Assembly (NCBI GenBank): GCA_948144175.1
Contig: CANXME010001988.1
Coordinates: 806,001 to 870,000, forward strand
Length of the DNA stretch: 64,000 nt
Direction: 5' to 3'
Source of the DNA: Closterium sp. NIES-65
Lineage: Eukaryota; Streptophyta; Zygnematophyceae; Desmidiales; Closteriaceae
Shown: piece after piece, positions 8,709 through 47,415 of the stretch
Position numbering within the stretch: position 1 is the stretch's first letter
Layout: the number at the start of each line of letters is the position of its first letter
Position numbers and translations under genes: made by a program
The notes under the pieces: generated by a model
Seen by the model: the letters and a program-made list of their open reading frames with translations, nothing else
The model's database searches: none
What the model was told of the DNA's origin: nothing

Positions 8709-10250
8709 CGATCATAAGATGGAAGGCAGACTGACGTGAATGCAAATGATTGCATCACATAACAAAATAATATATTTACTCCCTGTGGTGGACAGAGCAA
8801 TCACTGGCTGCTGTAAGAATCCCAATCACTAGACCATTGGGATAAAAGGGCTTGTTAAGTAGCGGGTCAGAGTGCGCCCATAACCCCCTAGGCAAACGCG
8901 CCTGTAACCCCCCGTAGGATCAATCGGGCATCCACGGTGCAGATCTACTGACACCCCCCCACACTGGGAGGCCCAGGACTGAGCACAGCGGCAACGGCCT
9001 ACATGTGCATACACCGGGATTCGAACCCGAGACCTTCGCTCTGATACCATGTCACAATCCCAACCACTAGACCATTGGGATAAGAGGGCTTGTTTCAGTA
9101 GCGGGTCAGTGCGCCCATAACCCCCCAGGCAACCGTGCCTGTAACCCTTCCCTAGGATCAATCGGGGATCACCAGTGGACCTCTGACACCCCCCCTCACT
9201 GGGATGCCCGAAGTGCACACACCGGGATTCGAACCCGAGACCTTCGCTCTGGATACCATCTCAGAATCCCAACCACTAGACCATTGGGATAAAAGGGCTT
9301 ATTTAAGTAACGGGTCAGTGCGCCCATAACCCCCCAGGCAAACGCGCCTCTAACCCCCTCCAGGATCATTCGGGCATCCACAGTGCAGATCTACTGACAC
9401 CCCCCCACACTGGGAGGCCCAGGACTAAGCACAGCGGCAACGGCCTACATGTGCATACACCGGGAATCGAACCCGAGACCGCTCTGATACCATGTTAGAA
9501 TCCCAACCACTAGACCATTGGGATAAAAGGGCTTGTTTCAGTAGCGGGTCAGTGCGCCCATAACCCCCCAGGCGAACGCGCCTGTAACCCTCTCCAGGAT
9601 CAATCGGGCGTCCACAGTGCAGATCTACTGACACCCCCCCACACTGGGAGGCCCAGGACTAAGCACAGCGGCAACGGCCTACATATGCATACACCGGGAA
9701 TCGAACCCGAGACCGCTCTGATAGCATGTCAGAATCCCAACCACTAGACCACTGGGATAAAAGGGCTTGTTAAGTAGCGGGTCAGTGAGCCCATAACCCC
9801 CCAGGCAAACGCGCCTGTAACCCCCTCCAGGACCATTCGGGCATCCACAGTGCAGATCTAGTGACACCCCCCCACACTGGGAGGCCCAGGACTAAGCACA
9901 GCGGCAACGGCCTACATGTGCATACACCGGGAATCGAACCCGAGACCGCTCTAATAACATGTCAGAATCCCAACCACTAGACCATTGGGATAAAAGGGCT
10001 TGTTTCAGTAGCGGGTCAGTGCGCCCATAACCCCCTAGGCGAACGCGCCTGTAACCCTCTCCAGGATCAATCGAGCGTCCACAGTGCAGATCTACTGACA
10101 GCTGCCTCTTGCTTTGCCAAGAGATGGCTGCACCATAGAGGCAATAGAGCATAGTCGGTGTGGCTGTTGCGGCTAGCTGAATCTCTAGTAGAGCCTGCAT
10201 TATCAAAGCCCACCAGCTCAACTTGAGACTCACTGCGTGCGGGCAAATAC
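8709..10250 (-). mobile_element. Copia-6 relic, copy 1, RNase H part, interrupted by tandem-LTR array C1
   Basis: 8709-8811 and 10101-10250 match the minus-strand RNase H region of Copia-6 copy 2 (30.6-30.9 kb). For example, GCTGCCTCTTGCTTTGCCAA occurs at 10101 and near 30740. The microelement array sits between the two parts. Beyond about 10250 the sequence changes to Copia-7. Confidence 0.65.
8812..10100 (-). mobile_element. Tandem-LTR microelement C, array of six LTRs and five internal segments
   Basis: Six LTR units lie at 8812-8953, 9050-9188, 9259-9399, 9493-9633, 9727-9866 and 9960-10100 (139-142 bp). They are separated by internal segments of 96, 70, 93, 93 and 93 bp. On the minus strand each full LTR runs from TGTCAGTAGATC to GGGATTCTGACA, and each internal segment begins TGGTATCAGAGCG and ends in a G-rich tract. 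The whole array is bounded by the perfect target duplication GCTGC (8807-8811 and 10101-10105). There is no coding capacity. The units carry tRNA-like A-box (TGGTCTAGTGG) and B-box (GGTTCGAATCC) motifs. Confidence 0.92.
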
Positions 10251-13830: not shown

Positions 13831-13922
13831 TAATTTGTCAGTAGATCTGCACTGTGGATGCCCGATTGATCCTGGAGAGGGTTACAGGCGCGTTCGCCTG
13901 GGGGGTTATGGGCGCACTGACC

Positions 13923-14052
13923 TGTGAAGTAATGAAAACAGGAATGAAAATGACTAAGGAAAGATTGGGTACAAATACAACCCTAGAAACCCTGTACCCC
14001 ATATGTGCTACCCCACTATAGCCTACAGCAAATATGTCATATAAATCTGACA
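13923..14052 (-). repeat. 3' LTR of Copia-4
   Basis: 130 bp, followed inward by the purine tract (CACCCCCATAGGCAAAGTGG on the plus strand). Confidence 0.95.
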
Positions 14053-14263
14053 CACCCCCATAGGCAAAGTGGGGGAGAACAAGGGGTCACAAGACCAGTC
14101 AAGTAAAGCAAAGCAGAGCAAGCTCAGGGTGGATCACAAAGTCACCACACAGTCCGAGCACAAGAGCAGGGCCAGAGGCCAGTTCACATGCAGGAGTACA
14201 GACATATATATATAAAACCAGACAAGCAAGAGCAGGTATATATATGTCACAGTACAAGTAAAG

Positions 14264-17200
14264 TCAAGAGGAGAGCAAGTGAGGCAAGACGGGCACAAGA
14301 CCCAGCTGGGTGCAAAAGCGCTGATGGTCACAAGGCGCGAGTGCCTTGGTGAACACATCAGCAGTGTTGGCCTCAGAGGCCACGTACGCAAGTCGCAACT
14401 GACCACGCTGCTGCAGCTCACGAGCAAGGAAGTAGCGGAGAGCAATGTGCTTCGTTCTGTGCTCCAAGCGCTGCTCTCGACACAAGGCCAGCATGGCCTT
14501 GTTGTCTACGTACAGCACTGGAGGAGAACGAGGCGGCTCTCCAAGGTCAGTCAGCAGGTAGGTGAGCCAGCGAAGCTCCTGTGCAGCCATGGCCCCGGCG
14601 TAGATCTCAGCCTCACAACTGGAGCCGAGAACCGAAGACGAGCGAGTAGACCGCCACGAGACAGAGCCGGAACCAAGGCTGAAGGTGTAACCCTGTGACG
14701 ACCGCTGCGTAGCCTGGTCGTCAGCCCAAGAAGCGTCTGCGTGGCCGGTAAGGACCACTGGACTCCGCCCTCCAAGCACTAGCCCCATGCCCGACGTGCT
14801 GCACAGGTAGCGCAATACCCTCTTCGCTGCAGCCATGTGCTCCGGTCTGTGTCTCCCAGGAGCAACATAGCGAGCAAGAATGCTCAGAGGGTATGCCAGG
14901 TCAGGTCGTGTGCAGGTCATCAGGTACATGAGGCAGCCAACAAGCTCTGCATACGGACCACTCGACTCTACGGACTCATCCGAAGGCAGAGCTGAGAGTG
15001 AGTGGCGAGTAGGCAGAGGAGTGGCCTGAGGCGAGGAGTACGTGAAGCCGAAGCGCTGAAGGACCTGCTGCACCATGTGTGACTGAGTCAAGGTAATGGT
15101 GCGGCGTGCTCTGTCCCGAGTGATCTGCAAGCCAAGGTAGCTGCGCAGTTCACCCAGGTCTGTGCACGTGTGTCTCTTCAGCAGCTCGGACTTCACGTAG
15201 GCGAGTCCAGCAGTGTCTGCTGTGGCAAAGACCAAGTCGTCGACGTACACGAGGATGTAGAACGGCGGCAGGGAAGTGTCGGTGCGAAGAAACAGCGACG
15301 GGTCAGCAGTAGAAGGAGCAAACCCAAGAGCCGCAAGCGTAGTCCTCAGTGTGTCATGCCACTCACGCGGTGCCTGGCGGAGACCGTAGACTGGCCGTCG
15401 GAGGCTCCACTGGGTGCCAGGAGGGAAAGTCCCAGTGAAGCCAGGTGGACGGCGAAGCCAGATCTCCTCGTGCAGGCTACCCTGCAAGAACGCAGTTCTG
15501 AAGTCGAGAGAGTGAAGCTCGTAGTCGCGCTGAGCGGCTATGTGCAGCAGCACCCGAAGAGTAGTCATCTTCGGGGTGGGAGAGAAGGTCTGAAAGTAGT
15601 CAACTCCCTGCCGCTGACTGAAGCCACGAGCAACGTACCGTGCCTTGAAGACAGGTGGAGAGCCCGGCGGCCGCTTCACCCTGAAGATCCACATGCCACT
15701 GACGATGTTCGCCCCAGGAGGGGGAACCGCGTCAACGTAGGTGCCTGTGGACTTCCAGGAAGCCATCTCTGCATCCATAGCTGCCTGCCACTGAGAGGAG
15801 TAGGGACCCTCTACGGCCTCCGCGTAAGAACGCGGAGTCGGGATGTCTAGTGCATCCGGGTCTCCCTCAGGGGCAAGCAGTACAGACGCGAGATGAGGTG
15901 AAGCAGCCGCTAGACACTGTAACTCCTCCTGCTTGTCCTCTAGGACGTCCGTGCCAAGAGCACACTCACCCCCGACGGACGGAGGACAGACAGACGCAGA
16001 CTCAGCAACAAGACCAGCAGCGTAGTCAAGACGACAGCGAGCAGCAAAGTTGACGAGCTCAGCGACTAGAGCAGACGCAGCAGTGGACTCAAAAGAGGGG
16101 TCAGTGACGACAGTAGCAAGCAGACGCGTGACAGTAGGACTGGCAGCACGAAGAGAGTCCGACTCAGGGTCGGCAAGCGCAGGAAGAGAGGACTCAGGAG
16201 GAGAAGGCAAAGGGGCACGCAGAGGAGCAGTGGACGGACGCAAAGACATCCGGTGCGTGCCAGGGACAGGAGGAGGACGCTGACGCGAACTGCGACCACT
16301 AGCGCGAGCAGTGCGAACAGGCGACGTGGGACGAGACGCAGGCTCACGACGCTCAGCAAGACCTCCAGTAGGACCAGTGTAAGGAGAGGGAGCAGGCAGT
16401 GGAGAGGAAGGCTCCAGCAGGGACTGCGACTGGACAGGCGGTGGACCCTCTACTAGAGGAGAAAGACCAAGAACCTGCTGCAGGAGCGGAACGAAGTACG
16501 GCCGAGGCCGCGCGGCAGCTCCAGACGCAGCAGGGACAGCACCAGCACCCTCAGCGACAGCACCAGCGCCGCCTACACCTCCAGCGGCAGGACCAACAGC
16601 AGTAGGCTCAGCACCAGCGCCCTCAGCAGCTCCAGCTCCAGGAGGACCCGCAGGTCCAGCAGCTCCGGGACCGGTAGCACCCGCACCCTCGACGGTCGAA
16701 GAAGCTCCAGCTCCAGCTCCAGCAGCACCTCCAGACTCAGCAGCACGCCTCCAGCGGCGAGCAAACCACTCGTGCAGCTCCTGTGGAGAGAGGGGCTCCC
16801 GGCGAGACGCGGCAGCAGGAGAAACCCCAGGCTCAGCAGCTCCAGACGCAGCACCCCCAGGCTCAGCAGCTCCCAGCTCAGCACCCCCAGGCTCAGCAGC
16901 TCCCGACCCAGCACCCCTAGACACAGCACCCCCCGGCTCAGCACCCCGAGGCTCCGCACCCTCCGCAGTAGCACCCCCAGGCTCAGCACCCCCGCGCACA
17001 GCACCCCCAGAGTCAGCACCCCCAGGCTCAGCACCCGCAGCAGTACCAGAGTCACCAGTAACCTCGACCGGGTCAACGGCGTCTACCTGGGACACACCTG
17101 AGGGGGCAGGAACCTGAGGGGGTAGGGGGTCTACCGGGGGGGGGAACCGGCACAAGGAAGTCCGGGGGAGGGGGGAGGGAAGGAGTGCGGTAGGGGAAGA

Positions 17201-20124
17201 GACGGTAGAAGGGGACTGACTCGTCGAACGTGACGTCCTGGGAGGACAGAACACGACGAGAGGAGGGGTGGTAAAACTGCCACCCTGGGGCGTCAGTGGG
17301 GAAGCCAAGGAAGACACAGGGAGCAGCACGAGGGGACAGCTTGTCCGCAGACAAGTCGCGGACAAACGCCCGAGATCCCCAGACACGGAACACAGACGCA
17401 TCGCCAACCTTCCCCGTCCACAGCAAGGCTGGGGACATCGCAGGCCGAGAGACCCGGGGGTGAAGGTTGAGCTGATGCGCTGCGTACCTCACCGCAAACG
17501 GCCACAGAAAATGGGGGGCAGCCGCATGCATCATGGACGTACGAGCGACATCCATGACCATACCAATGCGGCGCTCAGCAATCCCATTTTGCTGTGGTGA
17601 GTCCGGAAGCGTGAAGGTCTGGCGGATCCCCCGTGCACGACAGTAGTCCCGCAGAAGGCGAGAAGAGAACTCTCCGCCTCTGTCAGAGTGCAGACGCAGA
17701 ACAGGAAAGTCTGAGCGGAAGCTCTGCCTGAGCTGGAGACGAGCCTCGCGGATCCAGTCGATGAGCACCTCAGTGACCGCACCCTTGCTGCGCAAGGGGA
17801 GGACTGTGGTGTAACGCGAGTAGTCGTCAACCACCAACAGGAAGTAGCGCTCGTAACCCTGCCCACGGACGGGGGCTGGGCCCCACACATCCATGTGAAG
17901 CGTCTGCAGGGGAGCCTCTGTCGGGGGGAAGTGGGAGGAGTGAGGAGTAGCCCGGAGGCGACCCTCGACACAGGGGACACAGGAAGGTCCTGGCCCGGAG
18001 GGGAGAGGAGGGAGAGACTGGGGAAGACCAGAGACAAGGACACGGGAAGCCATGCTCCGAAGACGGGGCAAGGAGGGGTGGCCAAGACGGTGGTGCCACA
18101 GGAGAGTCTCGTGAGACAGGAGGCGACAAGAACAGGGGGCAGACTCAGGACCTGACCGGGACGCAGCCGCAAGTACCTGACCCGACGCAGCCACCTGACC
18201 AGACGCAGGGACAGGAGGAGACTCAACGGTCAAGGTGTAGAGACTCGACCCCGGCCGACGCGAGAACGTGGCCAGGTGTCGGCCTGTGCGTGCCTCCGTG
18301 CAGTGGGTCACCCGCTGACTCGCAGGAGTGAACTGGTGAACCCCCACATCCTGCAGGTGCGCTCCACTCACCAAGTTCGTAGAGAACGAGGGAAGGTACA
18401 GACCCGACAGGGTGCCCGAAGGGGCAGCCGGACACGGGAGGACAGTGGAGAAGTGAGACAGGACAGGACCCCCAGAGGGGTCAGCAAGGGAGACCGCAAC
18501 CGGCCGGCCCAGCGGCGTAAGGGTAGTGCGGTCTCGAAAGAAGGATCGAGAAGCTCCGTAGTCAAGTGTGAAAGTGAGGGAGGACGAGGACGACGCAGTA
18601 CCTGAGAGCGCAGTCTCACCAGTACCTGAGAGCAAAGACGCACTGGCACCTAGAGCAGCAGCCTCACAAGCACCTAGCGCAGCAGTACCAATGCCCGGGT
18701 CGGGCTGGAAACAACGGTAACCCTCATTCTCCTCACTATAATCCACAACATACATAGCAGCAAGGATAGCATCAAAATCAAGATCAAAGATCGCTACACC
18801 AGCCCTGAGGAGCTCATCCCAGCGAGGGATATCACTAGCCCCAGGGAACTGCCGACGCCAAGCGTCCGTCAGGCGGCCAAAGCAGCGCTGGGTGGCGTGG
18901 GCACCCCCACACTGCTCACCCGCGCGGTCGCCGGAACGAAGAACGTAGGTGCAGGGACCAGTGCCCCCACCCCTCTGACGCCCAGCGTACCACTCACGAA
19001 GCTGCTGAGGCGGAGGGATGTCCCGCGAGCGCTGCTGCTGCTGCCGCTGCGAGCGCTGGGCACCACCACCGCCGCTACGCTGCTGGGTACCACCTCGACC
19101 AGCCCCACCTCCTCCACCACCACCGCCTCCTCCGCTGCCGCCTCCACCGCCTCCACCTCCGCCGCCTCCACCACCGCCGCTGCCAACACCACCACCGCTG
19201 GCACCACCACCACCGTCTCCGCCACTGCTGCCACCACCACCACCACCTCCACCACTAGTCCCGCCGCCACCCCCACTCCCTCCGCCGCCACCGCCGCCAC
19301 CGCCACCGCCCCCTCCAGCTCCACCCGCGCCCTTGCCCCCCTTGCCCTTGCTGGAGCGACGTCTCCCACTAGGGGCAGACGCCGCGCCGACCGACTCAAG
19401 ACCCAGCAGGTCGGCAGCAGCAGCAGAGGCAACAGAGGGCAGCAAGGGGGAAGGAGAGCACCCCTCAAAGATGGGGGTGCGAGGGTCACCACGAGAAGCA
19501 CCTACAGCGACTATGCTCTTCTCCGCTGCGAGGAGGGCCTTCTCGAGCAGGTCGACGGTGAGGGTGGTGGGACAGACTGCGAGAAAGTGGTCCCTGACGA
19601 CGCGAAGGGAGTCAGGGAGGCGCGCGACTACGTAGTAGAGAGCGATGTACATGGGGGGGGGGGTTCTTAGCGCAGAACTCAGCAGGAAGGGCGGCGCGGT
19701 AGCGAGTGTCACTAGTGCGGAGGTGCGTAATGAGGTCAGCGACAGTGGGAAAGGCAGAGAGGTCAGGAAAGAGGTAGGGAAGCATGAGACGGCTCAGTGC
19801 AGCTGTGGCAGGGGAGGAGTAGCGCGCAACTACAGCGTCGTACAAGGTCTGAGCACTCTTGTACTGACTAAAGTGCGCACGCTCAGAGGTAGGGAGGTGG
19901 CGACGCACAGCAAGATGTGCAGCAGCATCGCGGGTGGCCCACTTAGAGCGGACAGCGGGATCAGCATCAGCAGGAGGAGCAGGAGAGGCGCCAGAGGTGA
20001 GGTCAAAGAGAGAAAGGTCGTCAGCCCTGTCGCACTGTAAGAACAACTGCAGGTCGTCTAACCAGACCTCAAAATCAATGGCGCGACCCTCAGCGTCAAA
20101 AGCTAGGACACTAGGGGTAGCCAT
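14264..20124 (-). pseudogene. Copia-4 gag-pol coding region
   Basis: Copia polyprotein in the order gag, protease, integrase, RT, RNase H. Gag begins MATPSVLAFDAEGRAIDFE and contains long glycine runs and a CX13CX3HX4C cluster. Integrase shows HLGHP-type and VDDYSRY motifs, then HSDRGGEFS and PQQNGIAERR. RT shows ARGFSQRQGVDYFQTF and YVDDLVFA. RNase H shows GHADASWADD, CEAEIYAGAMAAQELRW and the RTKHIALRYF ending. It is close in sequence to Copia-1 and Copia-2. A few breaks interrupt it, so it is treated as a fossil. Confidence 0.9.
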
Positions 20125-20179
20125 GGCGACGACAGCGACGCAGTGCAAGCAGTAGGGAAAGAGCTCGCAGTGTCAGTGG

Positions 20180-21240
20180 GACTGTGCTCACCAGGCAGGG
20201 CAGGTCGTGCAGCTATGCAGAAAGGCGGCTCAGCGACCGGGCAGCTCGGGTGCACAGCGGCTCGGCTGCTGGGCGGCTCGGCGGCTGGGCGGCTGGGGTG
20301 CAGGGCGGCTCGGCTCCCGGGCGGCTCGGCGGCTGGGCGGCTCGGGTGCAGGGCGGCTCGGCTCCTGGGCGGCTCGGCGGCAGGGCGGCTCGGGTCCCGG
20401 GCGGCTCGGCGTTGGGCGGCTCGGCTCCCGGGCGGTTCGGCTGCTGGGGCGGCTCGGCTCCCGGGCGGTTCGGCTGCTGGGGCGGCTCGGCCGGGAGATG
20501 CAGGGGCGGGGCCGTCAGGTGCAGCGGCGGGTCGACCGGTGCAGTGGCGGGCCGGCAGGTGCAGCGGCGGGCCGGCAGGTGCAGCGGCGAGCCGGCAGGT
20601 GTAGCGGCGGGCCGGCAGGTGCAGGCGGCGGGCCGTAGGGTGCAGCGGCGGGCCGTAGGGTGCAGCGGCGGGCCGGCAGGTGCAGCGGCGAGGCCGTCAG
20701 AGGCGGCAGGCCGCTGGGTGCAGCGGCGGGCCGGCAGGTGCAGCGGCGGGCCGGCAGGTGCAACGGCGGGCCGGCAGGTGCAGCGGCGGGCCGGCAGGTG
20801 TAGCGGCGGGCCGGCAGGTGCAGGCGGCGGGCCGTAGGGTGCAGCGGCGGGCCGTAGGGTGCAGCGGCGGGCCGGCAGGTGCAGCGGCGAGGCCGTCAGA
20901 GGCGGCGGGCCGCTGGGTGCAGCGGCGGGCTGGCAGGTGCAGCGGCGGGCCGGCAGGAGCAGCGGGGGGGCCGTCAGGTGAGGCGGCGGGCCGGCAGGAT
21001 GCAGCGGCGGGGCCGTCAGAGGCGGCGGCGGGGCCTCGGCAGTAGAGGCGGGGCCGCGTCAGGGGAGGCGGCGGGGCCGCGTCAGGGGAGGCGGCGGGGC
21101 CGCGTCAGGGGAGGCGGCGGGGCCGCGTCAGGGGAGGCGGCGGGGCCGCGACAGGGGAGGCGGCTGGGCCGCGTCAAGCAGGCGGCGGGGCCGCGATCAG
21201 GAGAGGTGGCGGGGCCGCGTCTGAGGGACAGCGGGGCCGC
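20180..21240 (-). repeat. GC-rich tandem-repeat leader of Copia-4
   Basis: Three successive repeat fields: GGCTCGGCTCCCGGGC-type units (about 20220-20490), GCGGGCCGGCAGGTGCAGCG units (about 20500-21010), and GGGGAGGCGGCGGGGCCGCG units (about 21040-21240). No coding signal. The GGGGCCGCG core matches the leaders of the other lineage members. Confidence 0.9.
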
Positions 21241-21290
21241 GAGGGAAAAGGCGACCCGAGGGGTCGCTAAAAAAAAGGCGCGCCTCGGGG

Positions 21291-21344
21291 CGCGCTTCGG
21301 TGGGCCCAAAAAAACGGTCCTAAGGCAGGACCCGCTCTATACCA
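21291..21344 (-). promoter_or_regulatory. Primer site and antisense tRNA-iMet-like leader of Copia-4
   Basis: On the plus strand the order of tRNA-like blocks is GGTGGGCCCA (anticodon stem-loop), then the hairpin GGTCCT/AGGACC in place of the T arm, then CGCTCTATACCA next to the LTR. The order and spacing agree with tRNA-iMet. Confidence 0.7.
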
Positions 21345-21474
21345 TGTGAAGTAATGAAAACAGGAATGAAAATGACTAAGGAAAGATTGGGTACAAATAC
21401 AACCCTAGAAACCCTGTACCCCATATGTGCTACCCCACTATAGCCTACAGCAAATATGTCATATAAATCTGACA
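21345..21474 (-). repeat. 5' LTR of Copia-4
   Basis: 130 bp, identical by eye to 13923-14052. It is followed by the target duplication TGACC and the rest of the microelement LTR it landed in. Confidence 0.95.
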
Positions 21475-22006
21475 TGACCCGCTACTGAAACAAGCCCTTT
21501 TATCCCAATGGTTTACTGGTTGGGATTCTGACATGGTATCAGAGTTGTCTCGGGTTCGAATCCCGGTGTATGCACATGTTGGCCGTTGCCACTGTGCTCA
21601 GTCCTGGGCCTCCCAATGTGGGGGGGTGTCAGTAGAGCTACACTGTGAGATCCCCGATTGATCCTGGGGGGGGCTACAGGCGCGTTTGCCTGGGGGGTTA
21701 TGGGCGCACTGACCCGCTACTGAAACAAGCCCTTTTATCCCAATGGTCTAGTGGTTGGGATTTTGACATGGTATCAGAGCGGTCTCGGGTTCAATTCCCG
21801 GTGTATGCACATGTAGGCCGTTGCCGCTGTGCTTAGTCCTGGGCCTCCCAGTGTGGGGGGTGTCAGTAGATCTGCACTGTGGATGCCCGATTGATCCTGG
21901 AGAGCGTTACAGGCGCGTTCGCCTGGGGTGTTATGGGCGCACTGACCCGCTACGGAAACAAGCCCTTTTATCCCAATGGTTTACTGGTTGGGATTCTGAC
22001 ATAATT

Positions 22007-41324: not shown

Positions 41325-44300
41325 TCAAGAGGAGAGCAAGTGAGGCAAGACGGGCACAAGACCCAGCTGAGTGCAGAAGCGCAGATGATCACAAGGCGGA
41401 AGTGCCTTGGTGAAGACATCAGCAGTGTTGGCCTCAGAGACCACGTACGCAAGCCGCAACTGTCCACGCTGCTGTAGCTCACGAGCAAGGAAGTAGCGGA
41501 GAGCAATGTGCTTTGTTCTGTGCTCCAGTCGCTGCTCTCGACACAAGGCCAGCATGGCCTTGTTGTCTACGTACAGGACTGGAGGAGAACGAGGCGGCTC
41601 TCCAAGGTCGGTCAGCAGGTAGGTGAGCCAGCGAAGCTCCTGTGCAGCCATGGCCCCGGCGTAGATCTCAGCCTCACAACTGGAGCCAAGAACAGAAGAC
41701 GAGCGAGTAGCCCGCCACGAAACAGAGCCTGAACCAAGGCTGAAGGTGTAACCCTGTGACGACCGCTGCGTAGCCTGGTCGTCAGCCCAAGAAGCGTCCG
41801 CGTGCCCAGTGAGGACCACTGGACTCCGCCCTCCAAGCACTAGCCCCATGCCCGACGTACTGCACAGGTAGCGCAACACCCTCTTCGCTGCAGCCATGTG
41901 CTCTGGTCGGTGTCTCCCAGGAGCAACATAGCGTGCGAGAATGCTAAGAGGGTATGCAAGGTCAGGTCGTGTGCAGGTCGTCAGGTACATGAGGCAGCCA
42001 ACAAGCTCTGGGTACGGGCCACTCGACTCTACGGACTCATCCGAAGGCAGAGCTGAGAGCGAGTGGCGAGTAGACAGAGGAGTGGCCTAAGGCGAGGAGT
42101 ATGTGAAGCCGAAGCGCTGAAGGACCTGCTGCACCATGTGTGACTGAGTCAGGGTAATGGTGCGGCGTGCTCTGTCCCGGGTGATCTGCAAGCCAAGGTA
42201 GCTGCGCAGTTCACCCAGGTCTGTGCACGTGTGTCTCTTCTGCAGCTCGGACTTCACGTAGGCGAGTCCAGCAGTGTCAGCTGTGGCAAAGACCAAGTCG
42301 TCGACGTACACGAGGATGTAGAACGGCGGCAGAGAGGTGTCGGTGCGCAGAAACAGCGACGGGTCGGCAGTAGAAGGAGCAAACCCAAGAGCCGCAAGCG
42401 TAGTCCTCAGTGTGTCGTGCCACTCACGTGGCGCCTGGCGGAGACCGTAGACTGGACGCCGGAGACTCCACTGGGTACTAGGAGGGAAAGACCCAGTGAA
42501 GCCAGGTGGGCGACGCAGCCAGATCTCCTCGTGCAGGCTACCCTGCAAGAAAGTTGTGCTGAAGTCAAGAGAGTGCAGCTCGTAGTCACGGTGAGCAGCA
42601 ACGTGCAGCAGTACCCGAAGAGTGGTCATCTTCGGGGTGGGGGAGAAGGTCTGAAAATAGTCAACTCCGTGCCGCTGACTGAACCCACGAGCCACGTAAC
42701 GCGCCTTGAAGACAGGCGGAGAACCCGGCGGCCGCTTCACCCTGAAGATCCACATGCCACTGACGATGTTCGCCCCACGAGGGGGGACAGCGTCAACGTA
42801 GGTGCCTGTGGACTTCCAGGAAGCCATCTCTGCATCCATAGCTGCCTGCCACTGAGAGGAGTAGGGACCCTCTATCGCCTCCGCGTAAGAGCGCGGAGTC
42901 GGGATGTCAAGTGCATCCGGGTCTCCCTCAGGGGTAAGCAGTACGGACACGAGATGAGGTGAAGCAGCTGCCAAACACTGGAACTCCTCCTGCCTGTCCT
43001 CAAGGACGTCCGTGCCAAGGGCACACTCACCCCCGACGGACGGAGGACAGACAGACTCAGACTCAGCGACAAGACTAGCAGCTTAGTCTAAGCGACAGCG
43101 AGCAGCAAAGTCGACGAGCTCAGTAACGAGAGCAGACGCAGCAGTAGACTCGAAAGAAGGGTCAGTGACAACAGTAGCAAGGAGACGCGTGACAGTAGGA
43201 CTGGCAGCACGAAGAGAGTCCGACTCCGGGTCGGCAAGAGCAGGAAGAGAGGACTCAGGAGGAGAAGACAAAGGGGCACGCAGAGGAGCAGTGGACGGAC
43301 GCAGAGACATCCGGTGCGTGCCAGGGACAGGAGGAGGACGCTGACGCGAACCACGACCACTAGTACGAGTAGCACGGACAGGCGACGCAGGGCGAGACGC
43401 AGGCTCACGACGCTCGGCCAGACCTTTAGTAGGACCAGTGTAGAGAGAAGGAGCAGGCAAAGGGGAGGTAGGCTGCAACTGTAGCTGGGACAGGACAGGC
43501 TGTGGACACTCTAAGGGAGAAGGAGGACCAGTAGAAGGTGGAAGACCAAGAACCTGCTGCAGGAGTGGAACGAAGTACGGTCGAGGCCGTGTGGCGACGC
43601 CAGAAGCAGCAGTGACAGCACCAGAACCCTCAGCAGGAGCACCCGCTCCAGCAGCACCACCAGTAGCTCCAGAACCTCCAGCAGCACCAGGAGCACCCCC
43701 AGCAGGACCGTCAGCGGTAGTCTCAGCGCCAGCACCCTCAGCAGCACCTCCAGTAGGAGCACCCGCTCTAGCAGCACCTCCAGGAGCTCCAGAACCTCCA
43801 GCAGCAACAGGAGCACCCCCAGCAGGACCACCAGTGGTAGTCTCAGCGCCAACACCCTCAGCAGCACCAGCTCCAGTCGAACCTGCAGGCCCAGCAGCTC
43901 TAGTACTCCCAGGACAAGTACCTCCGGGACTCGCGACAGCAGCACCCTCAGGAGCCGACGAACCTCCAGCACCAGCAGCACGGCTCCAGCGCCGGGCAAA
44001 CCACTCGCGCAGCTCCTGTGGAGAGAGTGGCTCCCGGCGAGACGTAGCACCCGGAGAACCTCCAGGCGGAGCACCTCCCGGCTCAGCACCCCCAGGCTCA
44101 GCACCCCCAGGCTCAGCACCCCCAGGCTCAGCACCCCCAGGCGTAGCACCCCCAGGCTCAGCACCCCCAGGCTCAGCACCCCTAGGCTCAGCACCCCCAG
44201 TAGCCGAAGAACCTCCAACACCAGCTGCACGGCTCCAGCGCCGGGCAAACCACTCGCGCAGCTCCTGTGGAGAGAGTGGCTCCCGGCGAGACGAAGCACC

Positions 44301-46500
44301 CGGAGAACCTCCAGGCGGAGCACCTCCAGACTCAGCACCCCCAGGCCCAGCACCCCCAGGCAAAGCACCCCGAGGCGTAGCACCCCCAGGCTCAGCACCC
44401 CCAGGCACAGCACCCCCAGGCTCAGCACCCTCAGCAGCACCAGAGTCACCAGTGACCTCGACAGGCTCGACTACATCTACCTGGGACACACCTGAAGGGG
44501 CAGGACCCTGAGGGGGGAGGGGGTCTACCTGGGGGGGACCTGGTACAAGGAAGAGCGGGGGCGGGGGGAGGGACGGAGTGCGGTAGGGGAAGAGGCGGTA
44601 GTAGGGGACCGACTCGTCGAACGTGACGTCCTGGGAGGTCAGAACACGGCGAGAGGTGGGGTGGTAGAACTGCCACCCAGGCGCGTCAGGGGGGAACCCC
44701 AGGAAGACGCAAGGAGCAGCATGAGGGGACAGCTTTTCCGCAGACAAGTCGCGGACAAACGCCCGAGATCCCCAGACCCGGAACGCCGACGCATCGCCAA
44801 CCTTTCCCGTCCACAGCAAGGCTGGGGAGGTCTCCGGCCTGGAAACCCTGGGGTGAAGGTTGATCTGATGCGCCGCGTACCTGACCGCAAACGGCCACAG
44901 AAAATGGGGGGCAGCCGCATGCATCATAGACGTACGAGCGACGTCCATAACCATGCCAATGTGGCGCTCAGCAATCCCATTTTGCTGCGGAGAGTCCGGA
45001 AGCGTGAAGGTCTGACGAATGCCCCGTGCGCGACAGTAGGCTCTCAGAAGGCCAGAGGAAAACTCTCTGCCTCTGTCCGAGTGCAGACGCAGAACAGGAA
45101 AGTCCGAGCCAAAGCTCTGCCTGAGCTGGAGACGAGCTGCGCGGATCCAGTCGATCAGCACCTCAGTGACATCACCCTTGCTGCGCAAGGGGAAGACTGC
45201 GGTGTAACACGAGTAGTCGTCAACAACTAGCAGGAAGTAGCGCTCGTGACCCTGTCCACGGACGCGGGCTGGGCCCCACACGTCCATGTGAAGCGTCTGC
45301 AACGGGGCCTCTGTTGGAGGAAACTGGGAGGAGTGAGGGGCAGCACGCTGGCGCCCCTCGACACAGGGGACACAGGTAGGGCCAGGGCCCTGAGGAAGGG
45401 GAGGGAGGGACCGGGGGAGACCAGAAACAAGAAGACGAGAGGCCATGCCTCTGAGCCGAAGCAGAGAGGGGTGACCAAGGCGGTGGTGCCACAGGAGAGT
45501 CTCGTGAGACAGGAGACGACACGAACAGGGGGCAGACTCAGGACCAGACCTGGACGCTGCAGCAAACACCTGACCCGACGCAGCTACCCTACCAGGCTCA
45601 GCAACTGGAGGAGACGCAGTGGTCAGTGTGTACAGGCTCGACCCCGGCCGACGAGTAAACGTGGCCAGGTGTCGGCCTGTCCGAGCGTCTGTGCAGTGGG
45701 TCACCCGCTGACTCGCAGGAGTGAACTGGTGAACCCCCGCATCCTGCATGTCAGCACCACTCACCAAGTTTGTAGAGAACGAGGGGAGGTAAAGACCAGA
45801 CAGGGTGCCAGAGGGGGCCGCCGGACACGGGAGGACAGTGGAGAAGTGAGCAAGGACAGGGCCCCCAGAGGGGTCTGCCAGAGAGACTGCAACTGGCCGA
45901 CCAAGCGGCGTGAGTGTGGTGCAGTCTCGAAAGAAGGAGCGGGAAGCCCCCGAGTCAAGGGTGAAGGTGTGAGAGGCCGGAGCCGACGCGGTACCTGAGA
46001 GAGCAGACTCACCCGCACCTGAGGAAGCAGACTCACTAGCACCTAGAGAAGCAGCCGCACCTGTACCTGGAGCAGGAGACACACTAGCACCCAGAGCAGC
46101 AGCCGCACCAGCAGGTAGAGCAGCAGGATCTATACCCGGGTCAGGCGGTACGCACAGGTGACCGGCACGGTCAGCACTAGTAGGCAATGCATACATGGCA
46201 GTGAGAATAGCATCATAGTCAAGAGCAAATATATCTACCCTCTGCCTAAGCAACTCCACCCTTTCGGGGAGCTCAGCCTCGTCGCCAAACTCAGTACGCC
46301 AGGCGTCGCTCAGACGGGCAAAGCAGCGGGACGGTGTGTGACTAGGCGTCCCACAAGGCTGACCAGTCCGAGCACCAGTGCGAATCACGTAAGAGCAGCA
46401 AACAGAACTGAGAGACCCTCCACTCTGAGCGTACCACTCACGAAGCTGCTGGGGCGTGAGAGACGCGCGTGGGCGTTGTTGGAGCTGCATCTGGCCGCCG
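41325..46500 (-). pseudogene. Copia-2 gag-pol coding region
   Basis: Same lineage as Copia-1 and Copia-4. Seen are a CX13CX4HX4C cluster (CSYVIRTGARTGQPC), protease (FTLDSGASRSFFRD), integrase with VVDDYSCY, HSDRGREFSS and PQQNGIAERH, a long alanine/proline/glycine linker with repeated AEPGG, RT (ARGFSQRHGVDYFQTF, YVDDLVFATADT) and RNase H (GHADASWADDQATQRSSQGY). The N-terminal gag segment present in Copia-1 and -4 was not recognised. Fossil with a few breaks. Confidence 0.88.
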
Positions 46501-46599
46501 CCAGTAGAAGCAGGAGCAGGAGTAGCAGCAGTAAGGCAGGCAGCCAAGCAAGCAGTAGGCAGCGCGCTAGTAAGGCAGGGGCTCACCAGTGGTGGGAAG

Positions 46600-47320
46600 A
46601 GGAGGCTCGACGACTCGGCAACTTGGCGGCACGGCGGCACTGCAGCAACTGCGGCTCGGGCGACTCGGGCGGCTCGGCTGCTCGGCAGCTCGGCGGTACG
46701 GTTGCTCGGCAGCAATGCAGCTCGGCGGCTCGGCGACCCGGCGGCTCGGGCGGCTGAGGTGGCGCTGCGGCTCGGGCGGCTCGGGTGGCTCGGGTGGCTC
46801 GGGCGGCTCGGGCGGCTCGGGCGGCTCGGGCGGCTCGGGTGACCCGGCACTAGTTCGGCGGCGCCGGCGGCTCGGTGGTGACGGCGGGGCCGCCTGGGGA
46901 CGGCGGCGGGGCCGGGTGGAGCGGCGACGAGGCCAGCAGAGGCGGCGCCGGGGCCGGCAGAGGTGGAGCAGGGTCGCAGGGGCACAGGGGCAGGCGACGG
47001 GGCCTGCAGAGGCGGGGCCGGGTCGGTGCAGGGCTGCGGGGCCGCAAGGGAGGTGGCGGGGCCGCGGTGGAGAATGGCGGCAAGGGCCGCGACGAAGGGC
47101 GGCAGGGGTCGCGACGAAGGGCGGCAGGGGCCGCGACGAAGGGCAGCAGGGGCCGCAACGAAGGGCGGGGCCGCGACGAGAGTGGCGGAGCCGCGACTAG
47201 AGATGGCGGGGCCGCGACGAGAGGTGGCGGGGCCGCGACGAGGGGCGGGGCCGCGACGTAGGGCGGGGCCGCGACGTAGGGCGGGGCCGCGACAAGAGGC
47301 GGGGCCGCGATGAAAATAGG
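46600..47320 (-). repeat. GC-rich tandem-repeat leader of Copia-2
   Basis: GGCGGCTCGG-type units (about 46640-46850), then GGGGCCGCGACGA-type units (about 47050-47310). These are the same two repeat styles seen in the Copia-4 leader. Confidence 0.88.
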
Positions 47321-47345
47321 TCGCACGCCGCGGGGCGTGCGACAG

Positions 47346-47415
47346 ATCGAGTAGCAGCGGAAGCAGTAGTAGGGCCTTAGGAACAGTTCCCACGAGGGAA
47401 CCTGCTCTGATACCA
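47346..47415 (-). promoter_or_regulatory. Primer site and near full-length antisense tRNA-iMet-like leader of Copia-2
   Basis: This is the best example. On the plus strand about 70 nt begin ATCGAGTAGCAGCGGAAGC, pass through GTAGTAGGGCC and CAGTTCCCA, and end AACCTGCTCTGATACCA. They track the 75 nt plant tRNA-iMet from its first bases to its CCA end with small gaps. GTTCCC/GGGAAC forms a hairpin in the T-arm position. Confidence 0.78.

Follow-up and report, generated by a model that had tools for sequence, protein, structure and literature searches.

A tandem miniature retrotransposon of Closterium with tRNA-type promoter boxes on either side of its LTR/interior border

We describe a tandem element in a window of 64,000 nucleotides from Closterium sp. 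NIES-65 (GenBank assembly GCA_948144175.1, contig CANXME010001988.1, positions 806,001 to 870,000, forward strand; coordinates below count from the first letter of the window). The element belongs to a high-copy family of terminal-repeat retrotransposons in miniature (TRIMs) with long terminal repeats (LTRs) of about 140 bp, a primer binding site (PBS) of the initiator methionine (iMet) type, a G-tract, and 5-bp target site duplications (TSDs). In the aligned copies, an A box lies near the 3′ end of the LTR and a B box just past the PBS, at tRNA spacing, and the two probably form an RNA polymerase III (Pol III) promoter that spans the border between LTR and interior. The parts of the element in the window are as follows.

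13831..13835, unstranded: 5′ TSD TAATT
13836..13922, plus strand: LTR1 (subtype b), first part, as far as a Copia insertion
21480..21533, plus strand: LTR1, second part (the duplicated TGACC is 21475-21479)
21491..21501, plus strand: CAAG-CCC-TTTT, the putative start region, R (the terminal repeat of the RNA) and terminator, with a run of four Ts (T4) at 21498-21501
21502..21526, plus strand: hairpin ATCCCAA / TTGGGAT, read from the sequence, whose loop is a changed A box TGGTTTACTGG (21509-21519); the stem is also found in other copies
21534..21626, plus strand: interior 1 (93 bp, subtype a), with a G-tract ahead of LTR2
21534-21545, plus strand: PBS of interior 1
21550-21566, plus strand: T-arm-like hairpin of interior 1, containing the B box GGTTCGAATCC at 21553-21563
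21627..21768, plus strand: LTR2 (subtype a), 142 bp, with the A box TGGTCTAGTGG at 21744-21754
21769..21860, plus strand: interior 2 (92 bp, subtype b), with PBS 21769-21780, B box GGTTCAATTCC 21788-21798 and a G-tract
21861..22001, plus strand: LTR3 (subtype b), 141 bp
22002..22006, unstranded: 3′ TSD TAATT

Read across the Copia insert, LTR1 totals 141 bp (13836-13922 plus 21480-21533), and the order of the element is LTR_b-[int_a-LTR_a]-[int_b-LTR_b], with outer LTRs of subtype b and an inner unit of subtype a. LTR1 and LTR3 agree at 138/141 positions, LTR1 and LTR2 at 131/142, and LTR2 and LTR3 at 128/142. An earlier note, made from the letters alone, had described this LTR-interior-LTR-interior-LTR structure, with LTRs of 141-142 bp, interiors of 92-93 bp and the TAATT duplication, and all of it can be located by coordinates; the retrotransposon ends, the iMet-type PBS and the G-tract by which it recognized a tandem LTR-type element are also present, and thousands of genome copies have the same borders. 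It had also paired an A box at 21744 with a B box at 21553. Both exist, but they belong to different units. Each unit has one changed box: in unit 1 the A box is changed (TGGTTTACTGG) and the B box perfect (GGTTCGAATCC), and in unit 2 the A box is perfect (TGGTCTAGTGG) and GGTTCAATTCC stands at the B position.

The genome searched comprises 874 Mb in 2400 contigs. Exact matches number 6,931 for the LTR core, 3,765 for the PBS followed by GGTTCRA, and 3,456 for the junction of LTR end and PBS, TCTGACATGGTATCAGAG; the reversed control patterns have zero matches. There are thus about 1.8 LTR cores per unit of PBS and B box, which, exact matches only being counted on both sides, leaves little room for solo LTRs. 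No viral contig has an exact match to a 21-base junction pattern.

We sampled 100 of the 3,456 junctions in contig order and read 90 loci (L048-L137), one junction each, some of which overlap (L061/L062). Four of the other ten sampled places lie within L094, L119 and L130, one lies in L034, and five on contigs C92, C93 and C95 were left out. Loci L001-L047 were picked with a query that crosses from LTR_a into int_b, and they are excluded from the counts. The alignment A1 has 69 rows, after exclusion of 15 non-TRIM or hybrid loci and removal of 6 identical rows.

A two-LTR structure was found by script in 62 of the 90 loci, and 47 of those 62 have a perfect 5-bp TSD with the ends unshifted. For two-LTR elements with typed ends, when a shift of at most 3 is allowed, the TSD is perfect in 48/54, and at least 4 of 5 positions match in 51/54. 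On borders and target duplications, the genome search that the earlier note had proposed agrees with it: thousands of copies have the same borders, and 48 of 54 sampled two-LTR elements have a perfect target duplication. Copies are dispersed, with different 5-bp TSDs, and have what one expects of a TRIM, namely two LTRs of 137-144 bp, a PBS, a polypurine tract (PPT), and an interior mostly of 66, 69 or 93 bp (the size survey sets aside the rows of L126 and L137, which were mis-set by the script). Interiors are of two types, a long one of about 93 bp (subtypes a and b) and a short one of about 66-69 bp (S). Short interspersed nuclear elements (SINEs) have no LTRs, and this element has LTR pairs and 5-bp TSDs; a tail of the type of long interspersed nuclear elements was not looked for. 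Identity within 57 LTR pairs, some of them inside arrays, has a median of 0.972 and a minimum of 0.841, with 7 pairs identical, and therefore part of the family moved recently. Three locus pairs (L105/L106, L096/L109 and L035/L042) have the same flanks and similar elements, and possibly represent segmental duplications or haplotypes assembled separately.

Since one box lies in the LTR and the other in the interior, a complete promoter-like unit arises only where an LTR joins an interior. The combined A and B pattern occurs 6 times in the window, while 60 dinucleotide shuffles give a mean of 0.017 and a maximum of 1. Chance alone would very rarely place both boxes at tRNA spacing. Five of the 6 occurrences sit in a second array, absent from the earlier note:

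8812..10100, minus strand: second TRIM array of the same family, with 6 LTRs and 5 interiors; TSD GCAGC

By the strict pattern, 54 of the 90 sampled junctions have both boxes, 12 have A only, 12 have B only and 12 have neither; 10 of these last 12 are not TRIM junctions. When the long (30 elements) and short (27 elements) subfamilies are compared, the A box scores 0.951 and the B box 0.907, against a mean of 0.668 over the 149 other 11-nt windows. Both fall in the best-conserved block, which extends from CAAGCCCTTTT to the T arm and scores 0.84-1.0, while other named parts score 0.38-0.88; LTR positions 71-90 also score 0.94-0.95, and the conservation of the LTR end and PBS was fixed beforehand by the sampling pattern. 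Subtypes a and b differ in the B-box loop (TTCGAAT/TTCGATT) at a position that we take to be free in the B-box consensus. T4 is found at the putative R site in 50/57 units, and elsewhere in 1/57.

A stem of 7 bp has the A box as its loop. Among 178 LTR tails, full pairing is seen in 160 and a single mismatch in 14, the other 4 not being parsed. In A1, the cells in which both sides of the stem have changed number 7, against a shuffled mean of 1.4 (0/500 shuffles reach it), and the pairs with a change on both sides number 2, which is equalled in 160/500 shuffles. The covariation of this stem appears modest, and the rows of the alignment are related.

How much like a tRNA is the unit? Of the 4227 Rfam families, the one that best matches one full element is tRNA (16.4 bits, E 1, model positions 7-64), and the match ends ahead of the acceptor stem. 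The tRNA scan of the window came out negative, with no tRNA by ARAGORN, no Rfam match at gathering score, and the single-element match below the cut-off; nor was 5S found in Rfam searches of the window and two elements. A functional tRNA gene can be rejected, given the negative ARAGORN result, a score of 16.4 bits against the 29 required, and the lack of a full cloverleaf. The earlier note had likened the segment to tRNA-Glu. It is tRNA-like, but the Glu label is loose: the similarity to two host tRNA-Glu genes is 42 and 43 (shuffled maxima 38 and 31), and that to a human tRNA-Glu is 60 (shuffled maximum 30), with 51 for Gln, and 44 for Gly and His. The two host genes were retrieved from 47 genome matches to a host tRNA-Glu pattern, and both are typed as tRNA-Glu by ARAGORN; an animal-type tRNA-Glu pattern has 8 genome matches, all of which read as TRIM junctions. 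The similarity of the two host genes being only moderate, recent capture of a host tRNA-Glu is rejected. As for the anticodon-like stem pointed out before, its sequence is present, but it consists of LTR end and PBS and is common to non-TRIM junctions.

As a separate observation, in a genome search with RF00005, for which 63 of 18,457 candidates were scored, the matches fall repeatedly into a few classes. The top ones, on contigs C113, C155, C241, C1956 and others, have identical scores and cluster on small contigs, a pattern like that of organelle or bacterial DNA.

A capture in the manner of Helenus elements is rather unlikely in our view, and it would be compatible with a border-spanning promoter. 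A tRNA gene or the head of a SINE would have inserted in an ancestral TRIM, and only its position relative to the border would be unusual. The alignment of the tRNA model over positions 7-64 and the similarities given above are what one would expect of it, and an origin by SINE insertion has been proposed for Helenus (described in PMC10886601). But the central part of the tRNA-like segment consists of LTR end and PBS, which other elements have too, so that an insertion would have had to reach across the border without destroying the function of the PBS, and no acceptor stem is seen.

We also regard it as unlikely that this is an ordinary TRIM transcribed by RNA polymerase II, in which the B-box-like hairpin would be the family's version of a stem-loop that follows the PBS and serves priming or packaging, and the likeness to an A box would be coincidental. 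Hairpins do follow other PBSs. When 13 non-TRIM PBS junctions are folded, some of them related, 4 are at or below 0.013 against shuffles and 7 at or below 0.06, and a stem-loop of about 7-11 bp stands directly after the PBS in 7 of the 13 (window 846 and 47415; L051, L052, L073, L082 and L104). The A box forms the loop of the 7-bp stem described above, in which some changes are compensatory, and this stretch may likewise be kept for another reason. However, the stretch after the TRIM PBS folds no better than shuffles (0.57 and 0.71), and in the sample the pattern used detects no B box at any of the 10 non-TRIM junctions, while the PBS with GGTTCRA occurs 3,765 times in the genome; among the matches listed (100 of 3,765), all are TRIM-like in spacing and sequence by eye. 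The chance occurrence of both boxes at tRNA spacing is very improbable.

The border between LTR and interior is also where the arrays change type. Leaving out L062, which overlaps L061, the LTR and the following interior disagree as long or short across the PBS at 15 of 90 boundaries, in 9 loci, while an interior and the following LTR never disagree across the PPT (0/97; Fisher p 9e-6). Eleven arrays have at least 3 LTRs and both ends (10 loci and the minus-strand array of the window). Allowing a shift of at most 3, 8 of them have perfect TSDs, 2 match at 4/5 positions and 1 at 3/5, and 6 of the 8 perfect ones mix types. The outer LTRs are not more alike than the inner ones in L055, L090, L126 and the minus-strand array. 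The TAATT element obeys the same rule, its outer LTRs being b and its inner unit a.

In 5 of the 90 loci (L062, L074, L083, L085 and L098), a putative Copia-type element is joined to a TRIM at this same border. The simplest is L083, which consists of a foreign LTR (LTR_C, 127 bp, 80-83% identical to the LTRs of L051, L082 and L110), a TRIM interior (69) and a TRIM LTR (138), within the TSD GTATC. L085 has an LTR_C (129), a TRIM interior (93), a TRIM LTR (141), a foreign interior of 448 bp and a second LTR_C, within the TSD GAATT; its outer LTRs are alike at 126/129 positions, and the end of the foreign interior resembles by eye the 3′ end of the window Copia. At the switches in L085, LTR_C ends in ...TTTTGTCA and the TRIM LTR in ...TTCTGACA, and both switches fall within CA and PBS, about 14 nt. 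L062 has a 218-bp LTR_C, two TRIM units of different type, a foreign interior and another LTR_C (96.3%), with flanks AATAT/AACAT (4/5). L098, a partial read only, has the order of L062 and L085, and L074 has no matching flanks within the stretch read; in these two, the last 10-12 nt of the LTR resemble the TRIM, so the switch possibly lies just upstream of CA and PBS. Ordinary nested insertion is rejected for the hybrids, as it would leave two TRIM LTRs and their own TSD. L049 is by eye a solo LTR nested in the ordinary way, with the TSD TGCAC.

Could the arrays have arisen after integration, by unequal crossing-over between LTRs, instead of during reverse transcription? The length of the conserved block would allow homologous exchange between TRIM copies, and breakpoints there would yield the same pattern of mismatches. 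We nevertheless consider this quite improbable, since the 5-bp TSD is perfect in 8 of the 11 arrays and matches at 4/5 in two others, 6 of those 8 mix types, and the hybrids share by eye just about 14-21 nt at the join. Least probable of all is a template switch in R during minus-strand transfer, by which Sabot and Schulman (2007) explain TSD-flanked complexes with identical outer LTRs (as given in PMC1950507), because both LTRs of L085 retain their own 3′ ends (TTTTGTCA, TTCTGACA), which places its switch downstream of R, within CA and PBS. Mismatches at the PBS only (15/90 vs. 0/97), together with TSD-flanked hybrids joined at the PBS, suggest intermolecular plus-strand transfer at the PBS.

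We therefore favor, as the probable explanation, that the TRIM is replicated by autonomous Copia-type elements, has a border-spanning Pol III promoter, and forms arrays and hybrids by hopping at the PBS. More tentatively, and with slightly less than even confidence, we propose that the PBS would split the promoter, whose A box would come from the LTR and whose B box from the interior, the LTR end and the PBS standing in for the anticodon arm. An LTR could then act as a promoter only when an interior follows it, solo LTRs and the LTR at the 3′ end would serve as terminators only, and the same PBS would join TRIM and Copia cDNAs in the particle, so that mixed arrays integrate as one piece. We infer Pol III use of the element from its sequence.

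Transcription would start about 17 nt upstream of the A box, and run through the interior and the U3 (unique 3′ region) of the next LTR. CAA is a plant Pol III start motif. A stop at the T4 run of the next LTR would give an RNA with ends of about 10 nt, AAGCCCTTTT, which could serve as R. Copia proteins would package this RNA, and reverse transcription would be primed at the PBS. In standard reverse transcription, as described in PMC3187697, the plus strand of LTR and PBS transfers to the PBS complement on the minus strand. Here, the plus strand may pair with the PBS of a second cDNA within the particle, and a hop to a cDNA with the same PBS would give LTR_X-PBS-int_Y-LTR_Y, as in L083. A second hop back would produce the forms of L085 and the TAATT element, and repeated hops would produce LTR-(interior-LTR)n arrays and Copia/TRIM hybrids. 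The order LTR_b-[int_a-LTR_a]-[int_b-LTR_b] in the window agrees with what hopping predicts.

Several observations weigh against this proposal. Regarding the promoter, the tRNA model scores 16.4 and 15.9 bits (E 1 and 1.4) against a cut-off of 29, the tRNA-like segment folds no better than shuffled sequences (z -0.66), and one pair of the T arm is broken in 17/69 rows of A1. The boxes exceed the average window in conservation, which the earlier note had made a test of its idea, but they are not uniquely conserved, since 10 of the 149 other windows reach the A-box score and 29 the B-box score; it is the whole block that is conserved and not the boxes alone. As 7 of 13 other PBS junctions carry a strong hairpin, the B-box hairpin may serve another role. 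And the T4 run stands about 6 nt past the putative start, with more T4 runs seldom expected in about 235 nt. Regarding the hopping, the 15 PBS mismatches are not independent, because boundaries recur within one array, and finer typing into a, b and S gives mismatches at 5/97 PPT and 20/90 PBS boundaries. A switch between TRIMs could lie anywhere in the conserved block and not at the PBS alone. LTR_C and int_C of the hybrids are only putatively Copia-type, and the exact patterns of two particular joins have 1 genome match each, so that each precise join is rare.

The other elements of the window bear on the family and on its possible partners. In the second array, one unit is of the short-interior subfamily, and the interior with its PBS at 9049 joins a short-type spacer to a long-type body. 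A 12-nt PBS identical to that of the TRIM is found at 47415, ahead of an open reading frame (43083-47393, minus) with rve, SH3 and gag_pre-integrs domains. The best matches of a Copia-type protein of the window are in Closterium sp. NIES-54 and NIES-53. The element that interrupts LTR1 is the following.

13923..21474, minus strand: nested Copia, 7.55 kb, inside LTR1
13923-14052 and 21345-21474: its LTRs, 130 bp each, identical; TSD TGACC

Its RVT_2, rve and SH3 domains are spread over two open reading frames, and near its 5′ LTR (window 20190-21230) there are GC-rich tandem repeats with periods of about 20, 8 and 23 bases.

If the proposal holds, the TRIM solves a design problem of LTR elements, two identical ends with one start and one stop, by keeping half of the promoter out of the LTR; the composites are a natural record of which larger elements replicate the TRIM and where strands switch, namely at the PBS in plus-strand transfer. 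In the open-licence literature we found neither a border-spanning promoter nor a description of the present family.

Tandem TRIMs are known from Gao et al. (2016), who report L3I2 and longer arrays with TSDs as we do; the text of that paper does not contain "polymerase III", and we found no account of array formation in it (PMC4717578). The complexes of Sabot and Schulman (2007) are likewise TSD-flanked composites with matching outer LTRs, but there the switch is placed in R, between related elements, whereas here it falls at the PBS and unrelated LTRs are joined as well (from the part available of PMC1950507). Published accounts of composites thus invoke a switch in R or later recombination, going by the available parts of PMC1950507 and PMC7215508; the latter, on Cassandra, poses the origin of tandem TRIMs as a question and offers later recombination and template switching.

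Cassandra itself is a Pol III TRIM with tandem LTR-interior arrays (PMC7215508, in part), and its short R, which comes from start and stop within the LTR (PMC10886601, in part), is like the one proposed here. It differs in having a 5S-type promoter inside the LTR, and the available text does not report tRNA-like boxes for it (PMC7215508); for our element, Rfam searches of the window and of two elements show no 5S rRNA match. The closest relative by design is Helenus, defined by Kojima (2024), who also proposed TRIMp3 for Pol III TRIMs, by a tRNA-like sequence in the LTR (PMC10886601, in part). Both are short, non-autonomous LTR elements with tRNA-type A and B boxes, a PBS and a PPT, and the sole plant family of Helenus, in Selaginella, is similar in size, with 120-bp LTRs, an 85-bp interior and 5-bp TSDs, a comparison by description (same source). 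In Helenus, going by that partial text, the tRNA-like part is inside the LTR; here the PBS separates an A box that belongs to the LTR from a B box that belongs to the interior, and the aligned copies do not have the whole tRNA-like part within the LTR. The two boxes are conserved and stand at tRNA spacing, although some other stretches are equally conserved. Judged by sequence, then, the element fits TRIMp3 by its boxes and fails the definition of Helenus, and it would represent, in a streptophyte alga, a second architecture among Pol III TRIMs.

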